From Microlunatus flavus (GTDB taxonomy: Bacteria; Actinomycetota; Actinomycetes; Propionibacteriales; Propionibacteriaceae): a DNA stretch of 64,000 nt. The notes under the pieces were generated by a model. The model was not told the DNA's origin, did not search any database, and worked only from the letters and a program-made list of their open reading frames with translations. The translations under genes and the position numbers were made by a program. Each line of letters opens with the position of its first letter. Position 1 is the stretch's first letter. The DNA is taken from contig NZ_FOFA01000002.1 of NCBI RefSeq assembly GCF_900110855.1, positions 620,001 to 684,000 on the forward strand, written 5' to 3'. This document shows positions 1 to 6,225 of the stretch, one piece after another.

Positions 1-474
1 GCCGTCCGGCTCCCAGCCTGCAACCGCCAGGAAGCGGCGGAGCTCGACGTCCGGCCCGAGAACCCACCAGCGGGCGTGGGTGAAACCGTCGGCCCGCAGC
101 GTGTCCGCACAGGCGTTGAGCAGGCGCGAGCCGTGGCCCTGGCGGCGTGCCGGAGGGTCGATCCAGAACTGGTCGACCTCGCCGTCGGCGCCCGCCTCCG
201 CGTCCGGGTCGGCGGACGGGCCCGTGGTCGCGAAGCCGACCACCCGACCGCCGCCCCCGAGCGCGGTCAGGACGCGTTGGCGGGCGTCCCGCGGCCGGGC
301 GAGCACCTGCTCCCAGGCCTGGACCATCTCCGCCTCGTCCACGCCGGCCAGGAGCGTCCCGCCCAGCTCTCCGGGAAGGTCGAGCCAGGCGCGGCGCTGC
401 ACGGCGGCGATCGCCGCGGCCTCGGTCGGCCAGGCCAGCCGTACCGAGTCGGCGACCGGGAGGGGTTCGGGCAC
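1..474 (-). CDS. GNAT-family N-acetyltransferase (partial, C-terminus off the left edge)
   Basis: 158 codons are visible, beginning at a GTG (472-474) and still open at base 1. The fold is GCN5-related acetyltransferase. Residues 100-120 carry the acetyl-CoA pyrophosphate-binding segment (motif A), with the loop R-Q-G-H-G-S at 111-116 after a beta strand ending in D-Q-F-W-I-D. Family proteins move an acetyl group from acetyl-CoA to a small-molecule or protein amine; the substrate cannot be read from sequence. The start is supported by a minus-strand -10-like TAGCAT at 481-486, exactly 6 nt upstream of the GTG, so the mRNA is probably leaderless. It is divergent from the MFS gene at 718, and the spacer holds an unusual hairpin (561-608). 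Confidence 0.85.
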   Translation of the reverse strand, partial: MPEPLPVADSVRLAWPTEAAAIAAVQRRAWLDLPGELGGTLLAGVDEAEMVQAWEQVLARPRDARQRVLTALGGGGRVVGFATTGPSADPDAEAGADGEVDQFWIDPPARRQGHGSRLLNACADTLRADGFTHARWWVLGPDVELRRFLAVAGWEPDG

Positions 475-480
475 GCGGCG

Positions 481-486
481 ATGCTA
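481..486 (-). promoter_or_regulatory. -10-like element TAGCAT, leaderless promoter of the GNAT gene
   Basis: On the minus strand TAGCAT lies 6 nt before the GTG at 474, the spacing expected when transcription starts at the start codon. The same arrangement recurs at several genes in this window. No convincing -35 was found. Confidence 0.45.
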
Positions 487-560
487 TCGGGGCCGGCGTG
501 TGCCTCACGTCACAGCCGTGCCGGTGCAACGAACCGAGTGGCTGCGGCGATGGTCCGGGT

Positions 561-608
561 GAAGTCGGCGCCCTACCTGAACCCCCGAGCAGGCATGGCG
601 CCGACTTC
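561..608. repeat. Hairpin with invariant-loop motif, copy 1
   Basis: A perfect 12-bp inverted repeat, GAAGTCGGCGCC (561-572) and GGCGCCGACTTC (597-608), encloses a 24-nt loop. The loop contains CCTGAACCCCCGAGCAG (576-592), in which CCTG/CAGG can form a small inner stem around AACCCCCGAG. The same 17-mer sits in the loop of an unrelated stem at 4415-4452. Both copies lie in divergent intergenic regions roughly 90-115 nt from each flanking start codon. Neither strand has a T-tract here, so it is not an obvious intrinsic terminator. Confidence 0.7.
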
Positions 609-717
609 GTCATGTCCTGAGCGGGCGCGGTGGGGGCACCACCCGGATCCGCCGGCGGCCGCTCCCTTACGTTGGCGAGGTATGCCCGCCGCCTGGTGGG
701 CAGCCCGAGGAGCATCC

Positions 718-2175
718 ATGGCGGCCGGCACGGACAAGACGACCGACGAGAAGACGGAGCGCACGAGGTCCGGCCCCCAGCAGGACGGCGGCGCCGAGGG
801 CGTCTCCCAGGCGCTGACCGGGCGGATGCTGCTCGCCGCTGTCGTGTCGGCCATCTCGGCGCTGCTCTACGGCTACGACACCGGCATCATCTCCGGCGCG
901 CTGCTCCAGATCCGTCGCGACTTCCAGACCGGCAACGGCATGGAGCAGGTGATCGCGGCCAGCATCCTCTTCGGCGCGGTCCTCGGCGCCGCGACGTGCA
1001 GCCGGCTCTCCGAGCGTCGGGGCCGCCGGACGACCATCCTGATCATCTCGGGGGTCTTCGTCGCCGGGACGCTGCTCTGCTCGGTCGCCCCGAACGCGAC
1101 CACCCTCGCGCTCGCCCGCATCGTGCTCGGGTTCGCCGTCGGCGGCGCCACGCAGACGGTGCCGATGTACGTCGCCGAGCTCGCGCCGGCCCGCAAGCGC
1201 GGCCGTCTCGTCCTCACCTTCCAGCTCGGCATCGGGGTGGGCATCGTGCTCGCGACGCTCGTCGGCGCGTCGGAGGCGTCGCCCTGGCGCGTCTCGGTCG
1301 GTGCTGCTGCGGTGCCGGCGGCGATCATGCTCGTCCTCATGCTCCGGCTGCCCGAGAGCCCGCGCTGGCTGGTCAAGGCCGACCGGCGCGACGACGCCCG
1401 CGAGGTGCTGCGCGGTGTGCGCGAGGAGGGCAGCGACCTCGATGCGGAGCTGCAGGAGATCGTCGACCTCGAGGAGGAGGAGCGTTCCGCCGGCGACGGC
1501 AACCGCGGCTGGCGGGGGCTCCGCCAGGCCTGGGTGCGTCCCGCGCTCGTGGTCGGCCTCGGCATCGCGATCTTCACGCAGCTGAGCGGCATCGAGATGA
1601 TCATCTACTACGCACCGACGATCCTCACCGACAACGGCTTCTCGGAGACCGCCGCCCTGCGCGTCAGCCTGGCGCTCGGTGTGACCTACCTCGTGATGAT
1701 GATCGTGGGCCTGACCATCGTCGACAAGGTCGGCCGGCGCCGCCTGACGCTGATCATGGTGCCGGGGGCCGCCCTCGCCCTGGCCGTGCTGGGCGCGCTC
1801 TTCGTCACGGGCCACAGCGGGCCCGACGACATCCCGTTCATCATCGCCTGCCTCATCGTCTTCATGTTCTTCAACGCCGGCGGCCTGCAGCTGATGGGCT
1901 GGCTGACCGGGTCGGAGATCTACCCGCTGGCCGTGCGCAGCGCCGGGACGAGCGCGCAGTCGGTCGCGCTGTGGAGCACGAACATGCTCATCACCCTGAC
2001 CGTGCTCACGATGATCGAGGGCATCGGCGTCGGCGCCACCATGTGGGTCTACGCCGCCTTCAACGTCGCGGCCTGGATCTTCGTCTTCCTCCGCATGCCC
2101 GAGCTCACCGGCCACAGCCTCGAGGGCATCGAGAGCCGCCTGCGGCAGGGTCACTTCCGTCCGAAGGACTTCTGA
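718..2175 (+). CDS. MFS sugar porter (sugar:H+ symporter family)
   Basis: A 485-residue inner-membrane transporter of the sugar-porter branch of the major facilitator superfamily. Family signatures seen: G-Y-D-T-G-I-I-S-G in TM1 (52-60), the R-R-G-R-R loop motif near 100, E-L-A-P-A-R-K-R-G-R after TM4, P-E-S-P-R-W-L near 212 before the central loop, Q-L-S-G in TM7, and V-G-R-R-R-L near 339. About twelve hydrophobic segments are present, with a charged N-terminal tail of about 35 residues. Members import hexoses, pentoses or polyols by proton symport; this substrate is unknown. The ATG at 718 was chosen over the ATG at 681 because GAGGAG lies 7-10 nt upstream and the longer N-terminus is not family-like. 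It appears monocistronic. Confidence 0.92.
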   Translation: MAAGTDKTTDEKTERTRSGPQQDGGAEGVSQALTGRMLLAAVVSAISALLYGYDTGIISGALLQIRRDFQTGNGMEQVIAASILFGAVLGAATCSRLSERRGRRTTILIISGVFVAGTLLCSVAPNATTLALARIVLGFAVGGATQTVPMYVAELAPARKRGRLVLTFQLGIGVGIVLATLVGASEASPWRVSVGAAAVPAAIMLVLMLRLPESPRWLVKADRRDDAREVLRGVREEGSDLDAELQEIVDLEEEERSAGDGNRGWRGLRQAWVRPALVVGLGIAIFTQLSGIEMIIYYAPTILTDNGFSETAALRVSLALGVTYLVMMIVGLTIVDKVGRRRLTLIMVPGAALALAVLGALFVTGHSGPDDIPFIIACLIVFMFFNAGGLQLMGWLTGSEIYPLAVRSAGTSAQSVALWSTNMLITLTVLTMIEGIGVGATMWVYAAFNVAAWIFVFLRMPELTGHSLEGIESRLRQGHFRPKDF

Positions 2176-2218
2176 GGTCTCCCGCGCCGGGCCCGTCGTG
2201 GCCGGCGCCGCCGCCCGG

Positions 2219-3574
2219 TCACGGAGGGTCGGGCGCCCGGCTCTCATAGGTGTGCCCGGTCGGCGTGGTGGTGACGACGGTGTGGGGCCGGTCGCCGAGG
2301 CCGTCGTGGACGACCGTCGCGCTCCAGCCGGGTTGTTCGCGGGCGAGGTTGTGCCGCGCGCACAGGCCGCGGGCGTTCGGCAGGGTCGTCGGGCCGCCGT
2401 CGGCGTGGCGCTGGACATGGTCGAGGTGGCGGACCGGGGCGTCGCAGTACGGCTCGCGGCACGTCTGGTCGCGCGCCAGGACCAGGTCGGCCAGCGCCCC
2501 GGTAAACCGGCGCCGCCCACCGATGTCGACCAGGTGCCCGGCGGGCGATCGGTGCAGCAGGCGCAGGTGCTTGGTCCCGCCGCTGTCGTCGACCAGCTGA
2601 CGGGCCACAGACAGGGGCAGGGCCCCGACACCGGTGACCGTGGCTGTGCCGGGCTCGGTCGAGCGCGGGCTCGGACTCGGACTCTGTGAGGCTGAGCCGT
2701 CGAGCACGGGCCCGTCCGCGACGTCGAGCGCGGCGTCGCTGGCCGCCAGCGCGTCGACCGGCACGATGATCTGGATCTCGACGGCGACGTCGCCGGCGCG
2801 GGTCTGGCCGGTGAGGCGTTCGACGAGGGTGTCGGCCATGATCTGGCCGCGGGTGCGTTCGTCGCCGGTGGCGACGGCGCTGTCGGTGTGCGTGCGCAGG
2901 GCGGCGAGGCAGGCCACGCCCTGCTCGACGGGCAGGTAGCCGGTCAGCACGCTCATCGTGTCCGGCGCCGGGCGCAGCGCGACGTAGCGGTCGTCGCGTG
3001 CGTGGCGGCCCCGTTCGAGGTAGGCGCGGGGGTCGGCGGCGTAGGCCGTCGTCGTGATGGCGGCGAGTGCTCGTCGGACGCCGAGGCCGGGCAGGTCGGT
3101 GCGGGGGTCGTGGAGCTGCTGGTCGACCTCGCGCCGCGTCACCGCAGGCAGGTGGCGGGTCTGCTCGACGACGGCGTTCGCGACGCGTTCGTGCAGCCGG
3201 CCGGCGGCGAGGGCGGCGTAGGTGTGGGGCAGGTCGAACCACCACGCCTTCGCCGCGCCGAGGCGTCGGGCGGCGACGGTCGGTGAGAGGCGGCAGGCCA
3301 GGGCGATCTCCTCGGCCAGGCCACGCCCGATCCGTTCAGGGCGCTGCTGCTCGGCGGTCTCGCGTTCGACGCGGACTCTGGTCAGGCGCACCATCGCCGC
3401 CGCCTGGGTCGCGGCGACCGCGCTGCGCAGGCGTTCGAGCAGGCCGACCTGGTCGACGAGGTCGGACTCGGTGAACTCGTCCTCGACCCCGCCCAGCGCG
3501 TCGGCGGTCAGCTCGCTCAGCTGCGCCAGCAACCCGGTGAGGGCGGCGGTGGTGGGGTGGAGGCCCTCCTCCAC
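2219..3574 (-). CDS. DUF222 / HNH endonuclease domain protein (13E12 repeat family)
   Basis: 451 residues. The N-terminal two thirds (about 1-300) match the DUF222 domain of the actinobacterial 13E12 family. The C-terminus (about 360-430) is an HNH nuclease module: it contains C-R-x-P-Y-C-D-A-P, then H-L-D-H-V-x-x-H-A-D-G-G-P-T, then N-x-x-x-L-C-A-R-H-N. A low-complexity Ser/Pro/Thr linker (about 290-315) joins the two. The family is multicopy in many actinobacteria and its role is uncertain; several mycobacterial members are reported as LexA-regulated. An imperfect LexA-like palindrome lies about 55-70 nt upstream (3629-3645). The start is the GTG at 3574, the only plausible one after an in-frame stop near 3608. 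Confidence 0.88.
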   Translation of the reverse strand: MEEGLHPTTAALTGLLAQLSELTADALGGVEDEFTESDLVDQVGLLERLRSAVAATQAAAMVRLTRVRVERETAEQQRPERIGRGLAEEIALACRLSPTVAARRLGAAKAWWFDLPHTYAALAAGRLHERVANAVVEQTRHLPAVTRREVDQQLHDPRTDLPGLGVRRALAAITTTAYAADPRAYLERGRHARDDRYVALRPAPDTMSVLTGYLPVEQGVACLAALRTHTDSAVATGDERTRGQIMADTLVERLTGQTRAGDVAVEIQIIVPVDALAASDAALDVADGPVLDGSASQSPSPSPRSTEPGTATVTGVGALPLSVARQLVDDSGGTKHLRLLHRSPAGHLVDIGGRRRFTGALADLVLARDQTCREPYCDAPVRHLDHVQRHADGGPTTLPNARGLCARHNLAREQPGWSATVVHDGLGDRPHTVVTTTPTGHTYESRAPDPP

Positions 3575-3628
3575 CGGGTCGACCGCCGCCAGTGCTATAC
3601 GAGAACGCTATCGAGCGGCGCGACTCAT

Positions 3629-3645
3629 TCGAACACCTGAATCGA
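3629..3645 (-). promoter_or_regulatory. Imperfect LexA (SOS) box-like palindrome
   Basis: On the minus strand the site reads TCGATTCAGGTGTTCGA. The GTGTTCGA half is identical to the perfect LexA box at 49887-49902. The other half is TCGATT instead of TCGAAC, and the centre is one base longer than TCGAAC-N4-GTTCGA. It lies upstream of the DUF222-HNH gene, a family with known LexA-controlled members. Functionality is inference. Confidence 0.4.
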
Positions 3646-3706
3646 ACAGGACAACACCCCGGCCGACCCGGACAACACCAGCGCGCGAGGACCCACGAGA
3701 GGCCGC

Positions 3707-4300
3707 TCAGCGGTAGTACGGCTGAGGCTCCTCCGGGTCCGTGCGGACGACGTCGAGGTCGGTCCGGTCCAGCAGGGCCTCGATCGCCGGCGGCTCGCCG
3801 CCGATGCCGGCCCAGTGCGGGTCGACGTCCTTCGCGAGGCACCAGCGGCGGTCGTCCGGCCACACGAACGCGGGGGCCGCGAGGAACCCGGGCGCGACCT
3901 CGTCCCAGTGCTCGAGGTCGGAGACGCTCCCGCGCAGGAGCCCGTAGCGCCGGACCGCGCCGAGGCCCTCGCCGACGACATCGAACCGCGGCAGGTCCGC
4001 CGGGACGTCGAGGCTGCCGGGGTAGCCGTCCCACACCGCGAACCAGCACGTGTCGGGCGTCGTCGTCCAGCCCGCGAGCACCTCCAGGCACAGGCGGACC
4101 TGCTCCAGCTCGCTCGGGTGGTCGTCCGGCAGGTCCTGGTCGGCCTCGGTCTGCCCGTCGCGCACCGGGTCGGGGACGATGCGCAGCCGCGCGTACGCCG
4201 CGAAGCCGTCGGGCCCCAGCTCGACCAGCCGCGTCCACGGAACCGTCGCCCCGAGCAGCCACCGGGCCGCGTCGGTGTCCCTGGACCAGGTGAGGCTCAC
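3707..4300 (-). CDS. Conserved hypothetical protein, 197 aa
   Basis: I do not recognise this family. The 197-residue protein is acidic, soluble and aromatic-rich: it has many Trp and Asp residues and ends D-P-E-E-P-Q-P-Y-Y-R. There is no signal peptide, membrane segment or obvious catalytic motif. Composition and GC-rich third positions match its neighbours, so it is probably a real gene. The GTG start at 4300 is supported by a minus-strand TACGGT at 4307-4312, 6 nt upstream (leaderless arrangement). An intrinsic terminator-like hairpin on the same strand lies 105 nt further upstream. It could be a SUKH- or immunity-like small protein, but I see no diagnostic motif. Confidence 0.6.
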   Translation of the reverse strand: MSLTWSRDTDAARWLLGATVPWTRLVELGPDGFAAYARLRIVPDPVRDGQTEADQDLPDDHPSELEQVRLCLEVLAGWTTTPDTCWFAVWDGYPGSLDVPADLPRFDVVGEGLGAVRRYGLLRGSVSDLEHWDEVAPGFLAAPAFVWPDDRRWCLAKDVDPHWAGIGGEPPAIEALLDRTDLDVVRTDPEEPQPYYR

Positions 4301-4306
4301 CGGGCG

Positions 4307-4312
4307 ACCGTA
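4307..4312 (-). promoter_or_regulatory. -10-like TACGGT of the 197-aa hypothetical gene
   Basis: TACGGT on the minus strand, 6 nt from the GTG at 4300, matches the leaderless pattern seen at recG, ftsY, ffh and sdhC. No -35 was recognisable. Confidence 0.4.
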
Positions 4313-4404
4313 CGATCCGGCGTCGCGCAGCGCGGAGAGGTCGGCCGAGGGGTGCGACGAGGCCGACGAGGACCCGATGAGGGCCCTCCGGAGGCCCCGG
4401 GAGG

Positions 4405-4452
4405 AAAAAAAGATCCGCAGGCTGCCTGAACCCCCGAGCAGCCAGCCTGCGG
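4405..4452 (-). terminator. Minus-strand intrinsic terminator; invariant-loop hairpin, copy 2
   Basis: A perfect 10-bp stem, CCGCAGGCTG (4415-4424) with CAGCCTGCGG (4443-4452), encloses an 18-nt loop that contains the 17-mer also found at 576-592. Read on the minus strand, the hairpin is followed by ATC and a run of seven T (4411-4405), a canonical rho-independent terminator and rare at this G+C. No minus-strand gene lies immediately upstream, since rnj at 4540 is on the plus strand. It may therefore stop antisense transcription or act in the leader of the 4300-3707 gene. Confidence 0.65.
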
Positions 4453-4539
4453 ACCCTGCACATCTTCTCCCAACGCCAGGACCGTCACTGTGGTTCCGGA
4501 GAAAATTAAGGATCGCGGGGAACGGTAGGGTCGAGCGAC

Positions 4540-6225
4540 GTGGCTCCCTCTCGTCTGCACAACCCTCCGCCCCTCCCTCGCGACGCCATGCGCGTCACGC
4601 CGTTGGGAGGTCTCGGCGACATCGGGCGCAACATGACCGTGATCGAGCACCACGGTCAGCTGCTGATCGTGGACTGCGGCGTGCTGTTCCCCGAGGACGA
4701 CCACCCGGGCGTCGACCTGATCCTGCCCGGCTTCGGCGCGATCGCCGACCGGCTCGGTGACGTCGTCGGCCTGGTGCTGACGCACGGGCACGAGGACCAC
4801 ATCGGCGCGGTGCCCTACCTGCTCAAGCAGCGCCCCGACATCCCGCTCATCGGCTCCCGGCTGACGCTCGCGCTGCTGCGCGAGAAGTTCAAGGAGCACC
4901 GCCTGCGCCACACGGTCGAGCTCATCGTCAAGGACGGCGAGCAGACGCAGGTCGGGGCGTTCGACCTCGAGTTCGTCGCCGTGAACCATTCGATCCCGGA
5001 CGCCCTGGCGGTGGCCATCAGCACGTCGGCGGGCCGCATCCTGCACACCGGCGACTTCAAGATGGACCAGCTGCCGCTCGACGGACGCCTCACCGACCTG
5101 CGGGCGTTCGCGCGGCTGGGGGAGGCGGGCGTCGACCTGTTCCTGGTCGACTCCACCAACGCCGAGGTGGCGGGCTTCACGACGCCGGAGCGCGACATCG
5201 CCAAGGCGCTCGGGTCGGTCCTCGACCGCAGCCGGCAGCGCGTCATCGTCGCGTGCTTCGCGTCGCACGTGCACCGCGTGCAGCAGGTCATGGACGCCGC
5301 CGTCGCGCACGGGCGCAAGGTCGTCTACGTCGGGCGCTCGATGGTGCGGAACATGGGGGTGGCGCGCGACCTCGGCTACCTCCACGTGCCCGAGAACACG
5401 CTGATCGAGATGCGCGACATCGAGAACCACAAGCCCGAGGACGTGGTGATCATCTGCACGGGCTCGCAGGGCGAGCCGCTCTCCGCCCTGTCGCGGATGG
5501 CAGCCAACGAGCACCCGGTGATCCAGCTGCGCCGCGGCGACACCGTCGTGCTCGCGAGCTCGCTCATCCCCGGCAACGAGAACTCGGTCTACCGCGTGAT
5601 CAACGGCCTGACGCGCCTCGGCGCGCACGTCGTGCACAAGGGCAACGCGCTGGTGCACGTGTCGGGCCACGCGAGCGCGGGCGAGCTCCTCTACTGCTAC
5701 AACATCGTCAAGCCGCGCAACGTGATGCCGGTGCACGGCGAGGCCCGCCACCTCGTGGCCAACGCCGACCTGGCGGTGGCGACGGGCGTGCCTCGCAAGC
5801 GGACGATCATCGCCGAGGACGGCGTCGTCGTCGACCTCCAGAACGGCAAGGCGTCCGTCGTCGGCAAGGTCGACGCCGCGTACATCTTCGTCGACGGCGC
5901 GACCGTCGGCGACATCTCCGAGGCGGCACTCACCGACCGCAAGATCCTCGGCGAGGAGGGCTTCGTCTCGATCGTGGCCGTCGTCGACACCCGGACGGGC
6001 AAGGTGGTGAGCGGTCCGGACATCCACGCCCGCGGCTTCGTCGAGGGCGACTCGGTCTTCGACTCCGTACGCCCGCAGATCACCGCCGTACTGGAGACCG
6101 CGCTGGCCGAGGGCGTCGACGACACCTACCAGCTGCAGCAGGTGATCCGGCGCCGGATGGGTCGCTGGGTCAACGACACGCACCGCCGCCGGCCGATGAT
6201 CGTGCCGGTCGTCGTCCAGACCTGA
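4540..6225 (+). CDS. rnj: Ribonuclease J (5'-3' exo/endoribonuclease, metallo-beta-lactamase/beta-CASP)
   Basis: A 561-residue cytoplasmic RNase of mRNA decay and rRNA maturation. After a Pro-rich N-terminal tail (1-16) comes R-V-T-P-L-G-G-L-G-D-I-G-R-N-M, the start of the metallo-beta-lactamase fold. The zinc motif T-H-G-H-E-D-H-I-G is near residue 80 and H-T-G-D-F-K near 170. The beta-CASP domain and C-terminal G-H-A-S-A-G-E and P-V-H-G-E segments follow, and length matches the family. Start: GTG at 4540; a GTG here gives the short unstructured tail that actinobacterial RNase J proteins usually carry, while the later ATG at 4588 would begin directly at the fold. The gene stands alone, closed by a strong hairpin at 6233-6260; the often-adjacent dapA is absent. 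Confidence 0.96.
   Translation: MAPSRLHNPPPLPRDAMRVTPLGGLGDIGRNMTVIEHHGQLLIVDCGVLFPEDDHPGVDLILPGFGAIADRLGDVVGLVLTHGHEDHIGAVPYLLKQRPDIPLIGSRLTLALLREKFKEHRLRHTVELIVKDGEQTQVGAFDLEFVAVNHSIPDALAVAISTSAGRILHTGDFKMDQLPLDGRLTDLRAFARLGEAGVDLFLVDSTNAEVAGFTTPERDIAKALGSVLDRSRQRVIVACFASHVHRVQQVMDAAVAHGRKVVYVGRSMVRNMGVARDLGYLHVPENTLIEMRDIENHKPEDVVIICTGSQGEPLSALSRMAANEHPVIQLRRGDTVVLASSLIPGNENSVYRVINGLTRLGAHVVHKGNALVHVSGHASAGELLYCYNIVKPRNVMPVHGEARHLVANADLAVATGVPRKRTIIAEDGVVVDLQNGKASVVGKVDAAYIFVDGATVGDISEAALTDRKILGEEGFVSIVAVVDTRTGKVVSGPDIHARGFVEGDSVFDSVRPQITAVLETALAEGVDDTYQLQQVIRRRMGRWVNDTHRRRPMIVPVVVQT

Follow-up and report, generated by a model that had tools for sequence, protein, structure and literature searches.

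Two hairpins of Microlunatus flavus belong to a family with one cytosine-rich loop and covarying stems, probably tiny regulatory RNA genes

Two intergenic hairpins in a 64,000-nucleotide stretch of the Microlunatus flavus genome (hereafter, the window) are members of a family that shares one cytosine-rich loop, while the stems of its members change in step. The family combines covarying stems, a high copy number, promoter motifs at a fixed distance and conserved synteny, and its members are probably tiny regulatory RNA genes. Taken as a whole, the explanation that we favor, and consider quite probable, is a multi-gene family of small trans-acting RNAs in which the loop serves as the seed. The two hairpins of the window are the following.

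561 to 608, plus strand: element 1, candidate C-loop small-RNA hairpin; outer stem 561-572/597-608, inner stem 576-579/590-593, loop AACCCCCGAG at 580-589.
4415 to 4452, minus strand: element 2, the hairpin nearest rnj; 10-bp stem 4415-4424/4443-4452, loop at 4429-4438.

The initial annotation had described these hairpins as two copies of one 17-nt loop, CCTGAACCCCCGAGCAG, on unrelated stems between divergent genes. The 17-mer does occur exactly at 576-592 and 4425-4441 only, with no third place at up to 3 mismatches (0.34 places expected by chance at that tolerance; at least two in 4 of 100 shuffles), the perfect outer stems do differ (12 bp at 561-572/597-608, 10 bp at 4415-4424/4443-4452), and both hairpins lie between divergent starts, with the flanking start codons, as read from the sequence, about 88-114 nt away. 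The constant loop also holds up, but not at a size of 17 nt: the true loop is the 10-nt AACCCCCGAG (580-589 in element 1, 4429-4438 in element 2), which sits on an inner stem of 3-4 bp made of CCTG and CAG(G), and mismatches separate this inner stem from the outer one.

In the 4.79-Mb M. flavus genome, AACCCCCGAG occurs at 18 places (1 for the backward-read control), of which 14, with differing stems, are that genome's 14 matches to our model R1, the other four being scattered; CTGAACCCCCGAGCA has 11 exact and 3 one-mismatch places there (control, 0). The arrangement had been judged not to be chance, and this judgment is borne out by the recurrence of the 10-mer as a hairpin loop at 14 of its 18 places. 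Random positions of the 17-mer without inverted repeats, named beforehand as the sign of coincidence, are not what the genome contains, since those 14 places coincide with the 14 model matches. Beyond this genome, R1 has 92 matches across all 20 genomes of the genus (1-14 each) and, under stricter filters, none in 37 other genomes of the family and order. Likewise, TGAACCCCCGAGCA is present in 18 of the 20 Microlunatus genomes and in 1 of the 37 others, where its single place has no hairpin. Sixteen of the 18 stretches with ACCTGAACCCCCGAGCAGG in the named sequence collection come from Microlunatus, Friedmanniella or Propionibacteriaceae, and visual inspection of the remaining two (Armatimonadetes, Clostridiales) revealed no long stem. 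At 17 genus loci that lay outside model building (L137, L138, L158-L170, L172 and L173), AACCCCCGAG is kept in 15 and replaced by ACCCCCCGAG in 2. Some copies are paired, 51-52 nt apart, and three loci (L005, L016, L079) hold local tandem sets of two to three promoter-plus-hairpin units spaced 194-278 bp apart.

For the comparison of stems, we collected 78 loop places, dropped L014, L015, L059 and the first place in L085, and aligned the resulting 74 hairpins without gaps (alignment A1; 66 distinct rows were used to compute covariation). In A1, 89.2% of cells are paired, and changes on both sides occur in 18 of 19 pairs (407 cells); the stem sequences are wholly different between copies. The covariation score is 0.798, against 0.201 for shuffles and at most 0.211 for slid partners, and this compensatory change supports the earlier suggestion of a structured element with a constant loop and changing stems; the invariance of the loop across the 74 rows is partly forced by the search word. 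Element 1 belongs to this strongly covarying alignment, folds at -32.1 kcal/mol (z -4.5) and matches R1 at 61.9 bits, R1 having been built with element 1.

The annotation had also proposed comparing hairpin positions with promoters. We scanned up to 130 nt before the loop at the 78 places, on either strand, against 20000 random windows, and three promoter or operator motifs were found on the C-loop side only: GTAA[CT]-N16-18-CGAT (36/78 places; 149/20000 random windows), TGTC-N8-GACA (14/78; 95/20000) and TGTGA-N5/6-TCAC (12/78; 105/20000), each with 0 on the other side. At 23 of the 78 places all three exact motifs are lacking; these include the two window elements as well as the four places dropped from A1. 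In family copies, GTAAC starts 51-54 nt before AACCCCCGAG, and we read GTAAC-N17-CGAT as a putative SigD-type ECF promoter motif by its likeness to the Corynebacterium glutamicum SigD consensus, given as GTAAC(A/G) and GAT (PMC6338062). At four loci (L035, L069, L070, L074), tandem palindromes of the form TGTCC-N6-GGACATGTCC-N6-GGACA stand about 60-95 nt before the loop of B-type hairpins; such TGTCC...GGACA palindromes are a putative operator for some regulator. One could suppose that the hairpins are mobile palindromic repeats (REP- or MITE-like DNA) or protein-binding DNA hairpins, given that copies are dispersed and locally tandem (L005, L016, L079) and that model matches vary from 1 to 14 between species; however, the promoter motifs lie on one side only, the stems of different copies are entirely different in sequence and one copy occupies a conserved locus across families, and we regard this explanation as highly improbable.

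An RNA is preferred over a DNA-protein site because the three motifs stand on the C-loop side only and because G.U pairs outnumber A.C pairs outside one column. Specifically, in the inner 15 pairs of the 71 rows other than the element-2 orthologues, the C-loop strand has 41 G.U and 7 A.C, a count that omits one constant A.C column pair. That pair (A1 columns 15/34), located where the inner stem borders on the outer one, is a mismatch in 43 of the 53 rows of the CCTG type; it points to the other strand, where it would be a G.U pair. Counts for the D type were left out because the gapless A1 sets row L075 in the wrong register. Fold energy was considered as a strand test and fails for the CCTG type, in which the G strand folds lower in 41 of 53 hairpins (mean difference 2.0 kcal/mol), since the constant A.C would pair as G.U there; hairpins of the other type show the reverse, 14 of 18 having the lower energy on the C strand. 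The evidence for the strand of family transcription is thus mixed at one column, and we favor the C-loop strand on account of the promoter motifs and of F6 (discussed below), whose named RNA carries the C-rich loop.

The hairpins might instead be bidirectional transcription terminators or insulators, with a loop kept unchanged by chance or through shared ancestry. Several features would suit a terminator: both hairpins of the window are rich in GC and located between genes, a T7 run adjoins element 2 on one strand and, in genome G015, the transporter gene ends shortly before element 2 on the plus strand. Against this, T-rich runs come directly after just 9 of the 80 C-strand stems and 1 of the 80 G-strand stems, each window copy is flanked by divergently starting genes, termination does not need an invariant 10-nt loop, and promoter motifs precede the hairpin at a fixed distance. 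We therefore consider terminators a distinctly unlikely account of the family. For the reading as small-RNA genes, element 1 offers the following surroundings.

1 to 473, minus strand: GNAT acetyltransferase gene, running off the window (Pfam Acetyltransf_1, 1.1e-10); its start, read from the sequence, faces element 1.
499 to 514, plus strand: CRP/GlxR-like site TGTGC-N6-TCACA upstream of element 1, read from the sequence; the regulator is presumptive.
526 to 551, plus strand: putative SigD-type ECF promoter of element 1, GCAAC (526-530)-N17-CGAT (548-551).
718 to 2175, plus strand: sugar/MFS transporter gene (Pfam Sugar_tr, 3.8e-95), located between GNAT and rnj in genomes G000, G003 and G015.

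The promoter box of element 1 is one mismatch (GCAAC) from the motif, at the usual -54 position and outside the 36 exact cases; its CRP/GlxR-like site is likewise one mismatch from TGTGA-N6-TCACA and is not among the 12 of 78. Judged by these signals, element 1 would be a C-loop small-RNA gene on the plus strand, with the RNA expected to start near position 558.

The surroundings of element 2 are as follows.

3707 to 4300, minus strand: gene for an uncharacterised protein beside element 2, with no Pfam match; also in G003.
4405 to 4411, minus strand: T7 run directly after the minus-strand hairpin, read from the sequence as a terminator-like end of the putative element 2 RNA.
4472 to 4497, minus strand: putative ECF SigE/SigH-type promoter motif, GGAAC (4497-4493)-N17-CGTT (4475-4472).
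4526 to 4531, plus strand: TAGGGT, a likely -10 box for rnj, whose transcript would be leaderless; unchanged across the three orthologues of element 2.
4540 to 6225, plus strand: rnj, encoding RNase J (Pfam RNase_J_b_CASP, 3.4e-52; RNase_J_C, 4.3e-23), the anchor gene of the ancestral hairpin locus.

Across 197 genomes of the class, 23, including that of M. flavus, have an R1 match: 15 belong to one genus (f22 g38, probably Streptomyces), three to family f12 and two to f7, and two other families have one weak match each. At loci L139-L156, the hairpin is followed by dapA and rnj in 18 of 18 cases and preceded by thyX in 16. When the region upstream of dapA was crudely scanned in 30 class genomes, C-run hairpins (stem score of at least 14) turned up in 11, three of them in the f22 genus, and R1 confirmed 4 of the 7 that were submitted to it. 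Within Microlunatus, a hairpin lies on the GNAT-rnj side of rnj in 13 of 20 genomes, and in 12 of these GNAT, whose place beside the rnj-side hairpin is conserved among relatives, was found within reach; three genomes of the genus carry element-2 orthologues near rnj, and in G001, G011, G016 and G018 the 400 nt upstream of rnj contain no CCCCCGAG hairpin. The order in the window is GNAT, element 1, transporter, DUF222 gene, unknown gene, element 2 and rnj; G003 has the same order minus the DUF222 gene, and element 1 is missing in G015. An old GNAT/rnj spacer was apparently split, leaving one hairpin copy at each end. The DUF222 gene, located at 2219-3574 between the transporter and unknown genes, is absent from that position in G003. 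Separately, rnj at G011:C1:1323406-1325038 (L257, L258) is matched as two overlapping pieces, possibly reflecting a frameshift or an assembly error.

The hairpins might alternatively be cis-acting 5'-UTR elements, either riboswitches or protein-binding leaders, of the genes downstream, and several copies do have a same-strand gene behind them (rnj, dapA, the sugar transporter gene, rpf). However, the downstream genes identified differ in function (in the M. flavus genome, the flanks of the two window copies were annotated); in the window, a separate TAGGGT box immediately precedes the GTG of rnj at 4540, a likely -10 box judging by its distance to that codon; some copies stand 194-278 nt apart or are paired 51-52 nt apart; and two rpf-side copies (L172, L173) are followed by a T-run terminator before the gene. 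Cis-acting leaders are, in our estimation, unlikely.

Under the preferred reading as trans-acting RNAs, for which we infer transcription, its strand, the identities of the sigma factors and the pairing with targets, an ECF (SigD-type), housekeeping-like or otherwise regulated promoter would in most copies start an RNA of about 50-60 nt consisting of little besides one hairpin. The loop, (G)AACCCCCGAG(C), would be the seed and the stem would merely present it, so that the stem sequence would be free to change while pairing holds. Judging by analogy, the loop most likely represses translation by binding G-rich, UCGGGGGU-like sequence close to a ribosome-binding site or within a 5'-UTR loop; the C-loops of B11/6C and F6 are described as pairing with ribosome-binding site or 5'-UTR sequences (PMC10470900, PMC12395582, PMC8583896). 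The copies would be siblings that convert several inputs (the SigD-type promoter, the CRP-like site and the TGTCC...GGACA operator) into one regulatory output. Weighing against this reading are the constant A.C column, the 23 of 78 places lacking all three exact motifs, the rarity of T-rich runs behind C-strand stems (9 of 80) and Rfam scores below gathering at the hairpins. Pairing of the 10-nt loop with its full complement is calculated at -18.6 kcal/mol. Since that exact complement hardly occurs in the M. flavus genome apart from the family itself, targets would pair with 7-8 nt.

Several candidate targets were considered and rejected. Of the four non-family places of CTCGGGGGTT, L208 and L220 lie within long reading frames, L215 lies between two minus-strand genes with the C version on the sense strand, and L222 (identical to L014) has a chance stem only. 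Upstream of rpf genes, no consistent 8-10 nt complement was found (30 of 40 rpf places read). The family hairpin itself stands upstream of rpf in G001, G011, G016, G017 and G018 (L261, L262, L266, L267 and L269, mostly of the form GGTTGCCGGAGG...GAACCCCCGAGC...), a position that deserves attention because F6 acts on rpfE2 in M. smegmatis.

Element 2 seems to have moved its transcription to the minus strand, where its loop has the sequence CUCGGGGGUU and its stem is longer, covering about 4411-4457. Folds of equal length (62 nt) are calculated at -35.3 kcal/mol for the minus strand and -25.8 for the plus strand; in element 2 and its orthologues in G003 and G015, the minus fold is lower by 9.5, 4.4 and 10.8 kcal/mol, with 6 G.U pairs on the minus strand versus 1 on the plus strand. 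We use this advantage only as supporting evidence, because CCTG-type copies lean the same way by 2.0 kcal/mol. The SigD-type motif is absent from all three, and the GGAAC and CGTT boxes are invariant among them, with a variable spacer; C. glutamicum SigH-type promoters are given as GGAA(T/C) and GTT (PMC6338062). GGAAC-N17-CGTT occurs on the G-loop side at exactly these 3 of 78 places, never on the C side and in 12 of 20000 random windows, the motif having been picked after looking, at three orthologous and thus not independent places, and the sigma factor being presumptive. The pyrimidine tails of the orthologues are weaker than the T7 run of the window. Scans of 4350-4600 found no sigma-70 promoter and no terminator, the latter scan permitting loops of 3-8 only.

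Given the minus-strand promoter motif and the T run, the loop of element 2 would complement those of its sisters. We propose, tentatively and as a possibility that we rate below even chances, that element 2 is an anti-sRNA sponge: an rnj C-loop gene that flipped strand under a SigE/SigH-type promoter and switches the family off. Its RNA would act under a different stress and expose CUCGGGGGUU, the exact complement of the sibling loops, with complementarity extending to 17 nt for CCTG-type siblings having the 17-mer. If both were fully opened, the 17-nt duplex with a sister RNA would reach -36.6 kcal/mol; cofolding of the intact hairpins gives -69.1 vs -67.4 kcal/mol, almost no gain, with a program that cannot represent loop-loop contacts. 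Element 2 or its orthologues are found in 3 of the 20 genus genomes, G000, G003 and G015, which have 14, 14 and 10 model matches; G018, also with 10, is without one. Element 2 may also be transcribed from the plus strand, and a terminator acting on either strand is a competing explanation. If element 2 is indeed a sponge that arose by a strand flip, this would be a very simple evolutionary route to an anti-sRNA.

Searches for known RNAs did not name the family: cmscan (Rfam) of window positions 1-6000, 12 M. flavus loci and 10 loci of relatives placed no family over its gathering score at the hairpins. The word GAACCCCCGAGC was not found in the literature searched, nor, by title, was a Microlunatus small RNA paper on these hairpins; for Streptomyces sRNAs and thyX, the matches listed concern ThyX or thymidylate metabolism, and for sponges and C-rich loops, only Xanthomonas sX13, which has C-rich loops, is related among the matches listed. 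Streptomyces scr5583 and scr1434 are, like the family, sRNAs described with C-rich loops (PMC3765725), but their identity with the thyX-dapA hairpin is conjectural; the gene names sought for that locus do not occur in the main text of that paper. Listeria LhrC1-5, from a different organism and likened here by description only, resemble the family in being several homologous, stress-controlled sRNA genes.

The family also resembles 6C RNA/B11 (RF01066), whose C-rich hairpin loops pair with G tracts of ribosome-binding sites (PMC10470900, PMC12395582). Unlike 6C, with its two adjacent hairpins with C-run loops, the window elements are single hairpins, although a 6C-like layout of paired hairpins occurs at C13:178993-179091. 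None of 31 genomes exceeds the 6C gathering score (47 bits), C. glutamicum, a known 6C carrier, likewise being below it, which makes this comparison weak. 6C is reported within the GlxR network of C. glutamicum (PMC4046766), and, similarly, a CRP-like site precedes 12 of 78 family copies.

F6 (ncRv10243, RF01791) is the closest comparison, being a long hairpin with a C5/C6 loop, ACCCCC(C)GA, as the family hairpins have a C-rich loop containing CCCCCGA. By the Rfam criterion, the family hairpins are not F6 members: none of the 20 genus genomes reaches the gathering score of 46 bits, the family copy at G018:579080 scores 33.5 bits and the f12 copy L140 28.2 bits, and R1 in turn reaches 0 of 6 F6 loci. 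F6 proper exceeds the cut-off in 6 of 118 class genomes, all in f7 (presumably mycobacteria). GGGTA[CT], which we take to be the SigF -10 box, begins 45-34 nt ahead of the loop in 1 of 74 family copies and at -39 in 2 of the 6 F6 loci, so that the family differs in its promoters from M. tuberculosis F6, which is SigF-controlled and lies between fadA2 and fadE5 (PMC8557902). The sites differ as well, the window copies being flanked by GNAT and transporter genes and by the uncharacterised gene and rnj, and the available text of PMC8557902 and PMC8583896 does not mention a multi-copy expansion of F6. The M. smegmatis F6 loop pairs with an 8-nt loop in the 5'-UTR of MSMEG_4640 (rpfE2) (PMC8583896).

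What the two share is a GTAAC box at a near-equal distance (36 of 78 family copies, element 1 with one mismatch, element 2 not; the criterion is unpublished). In 5 of the 6 F6 loci, GTAAC starts 53-54 nt before ACCCCC(C)GA; AACCCCCGAG, the reference used for the family copies, lies one base further out. The complete GTAAC-N16/17-CGAT starts 53-55 nt before the loop in 3 of these 6 and in f12 loci L140, L154 and L174; these are 3 of the 4 non-genus, non-F6 loci tested, the f22 locus being without the motif. Because GTAAC stands at nearly the same distance before F6, the family looks like an unrecognised, expanded F6-like branch, and a common ancestry with F6 is likely. Regulation of the F6 kind, familiar from mycobacteria, would then reach a wider actinobacterial family with an old thyX-dapA-rnj locus, in which F6-like RNAs would have multiplied under different promoters, up to 14 hairpins in one genome.
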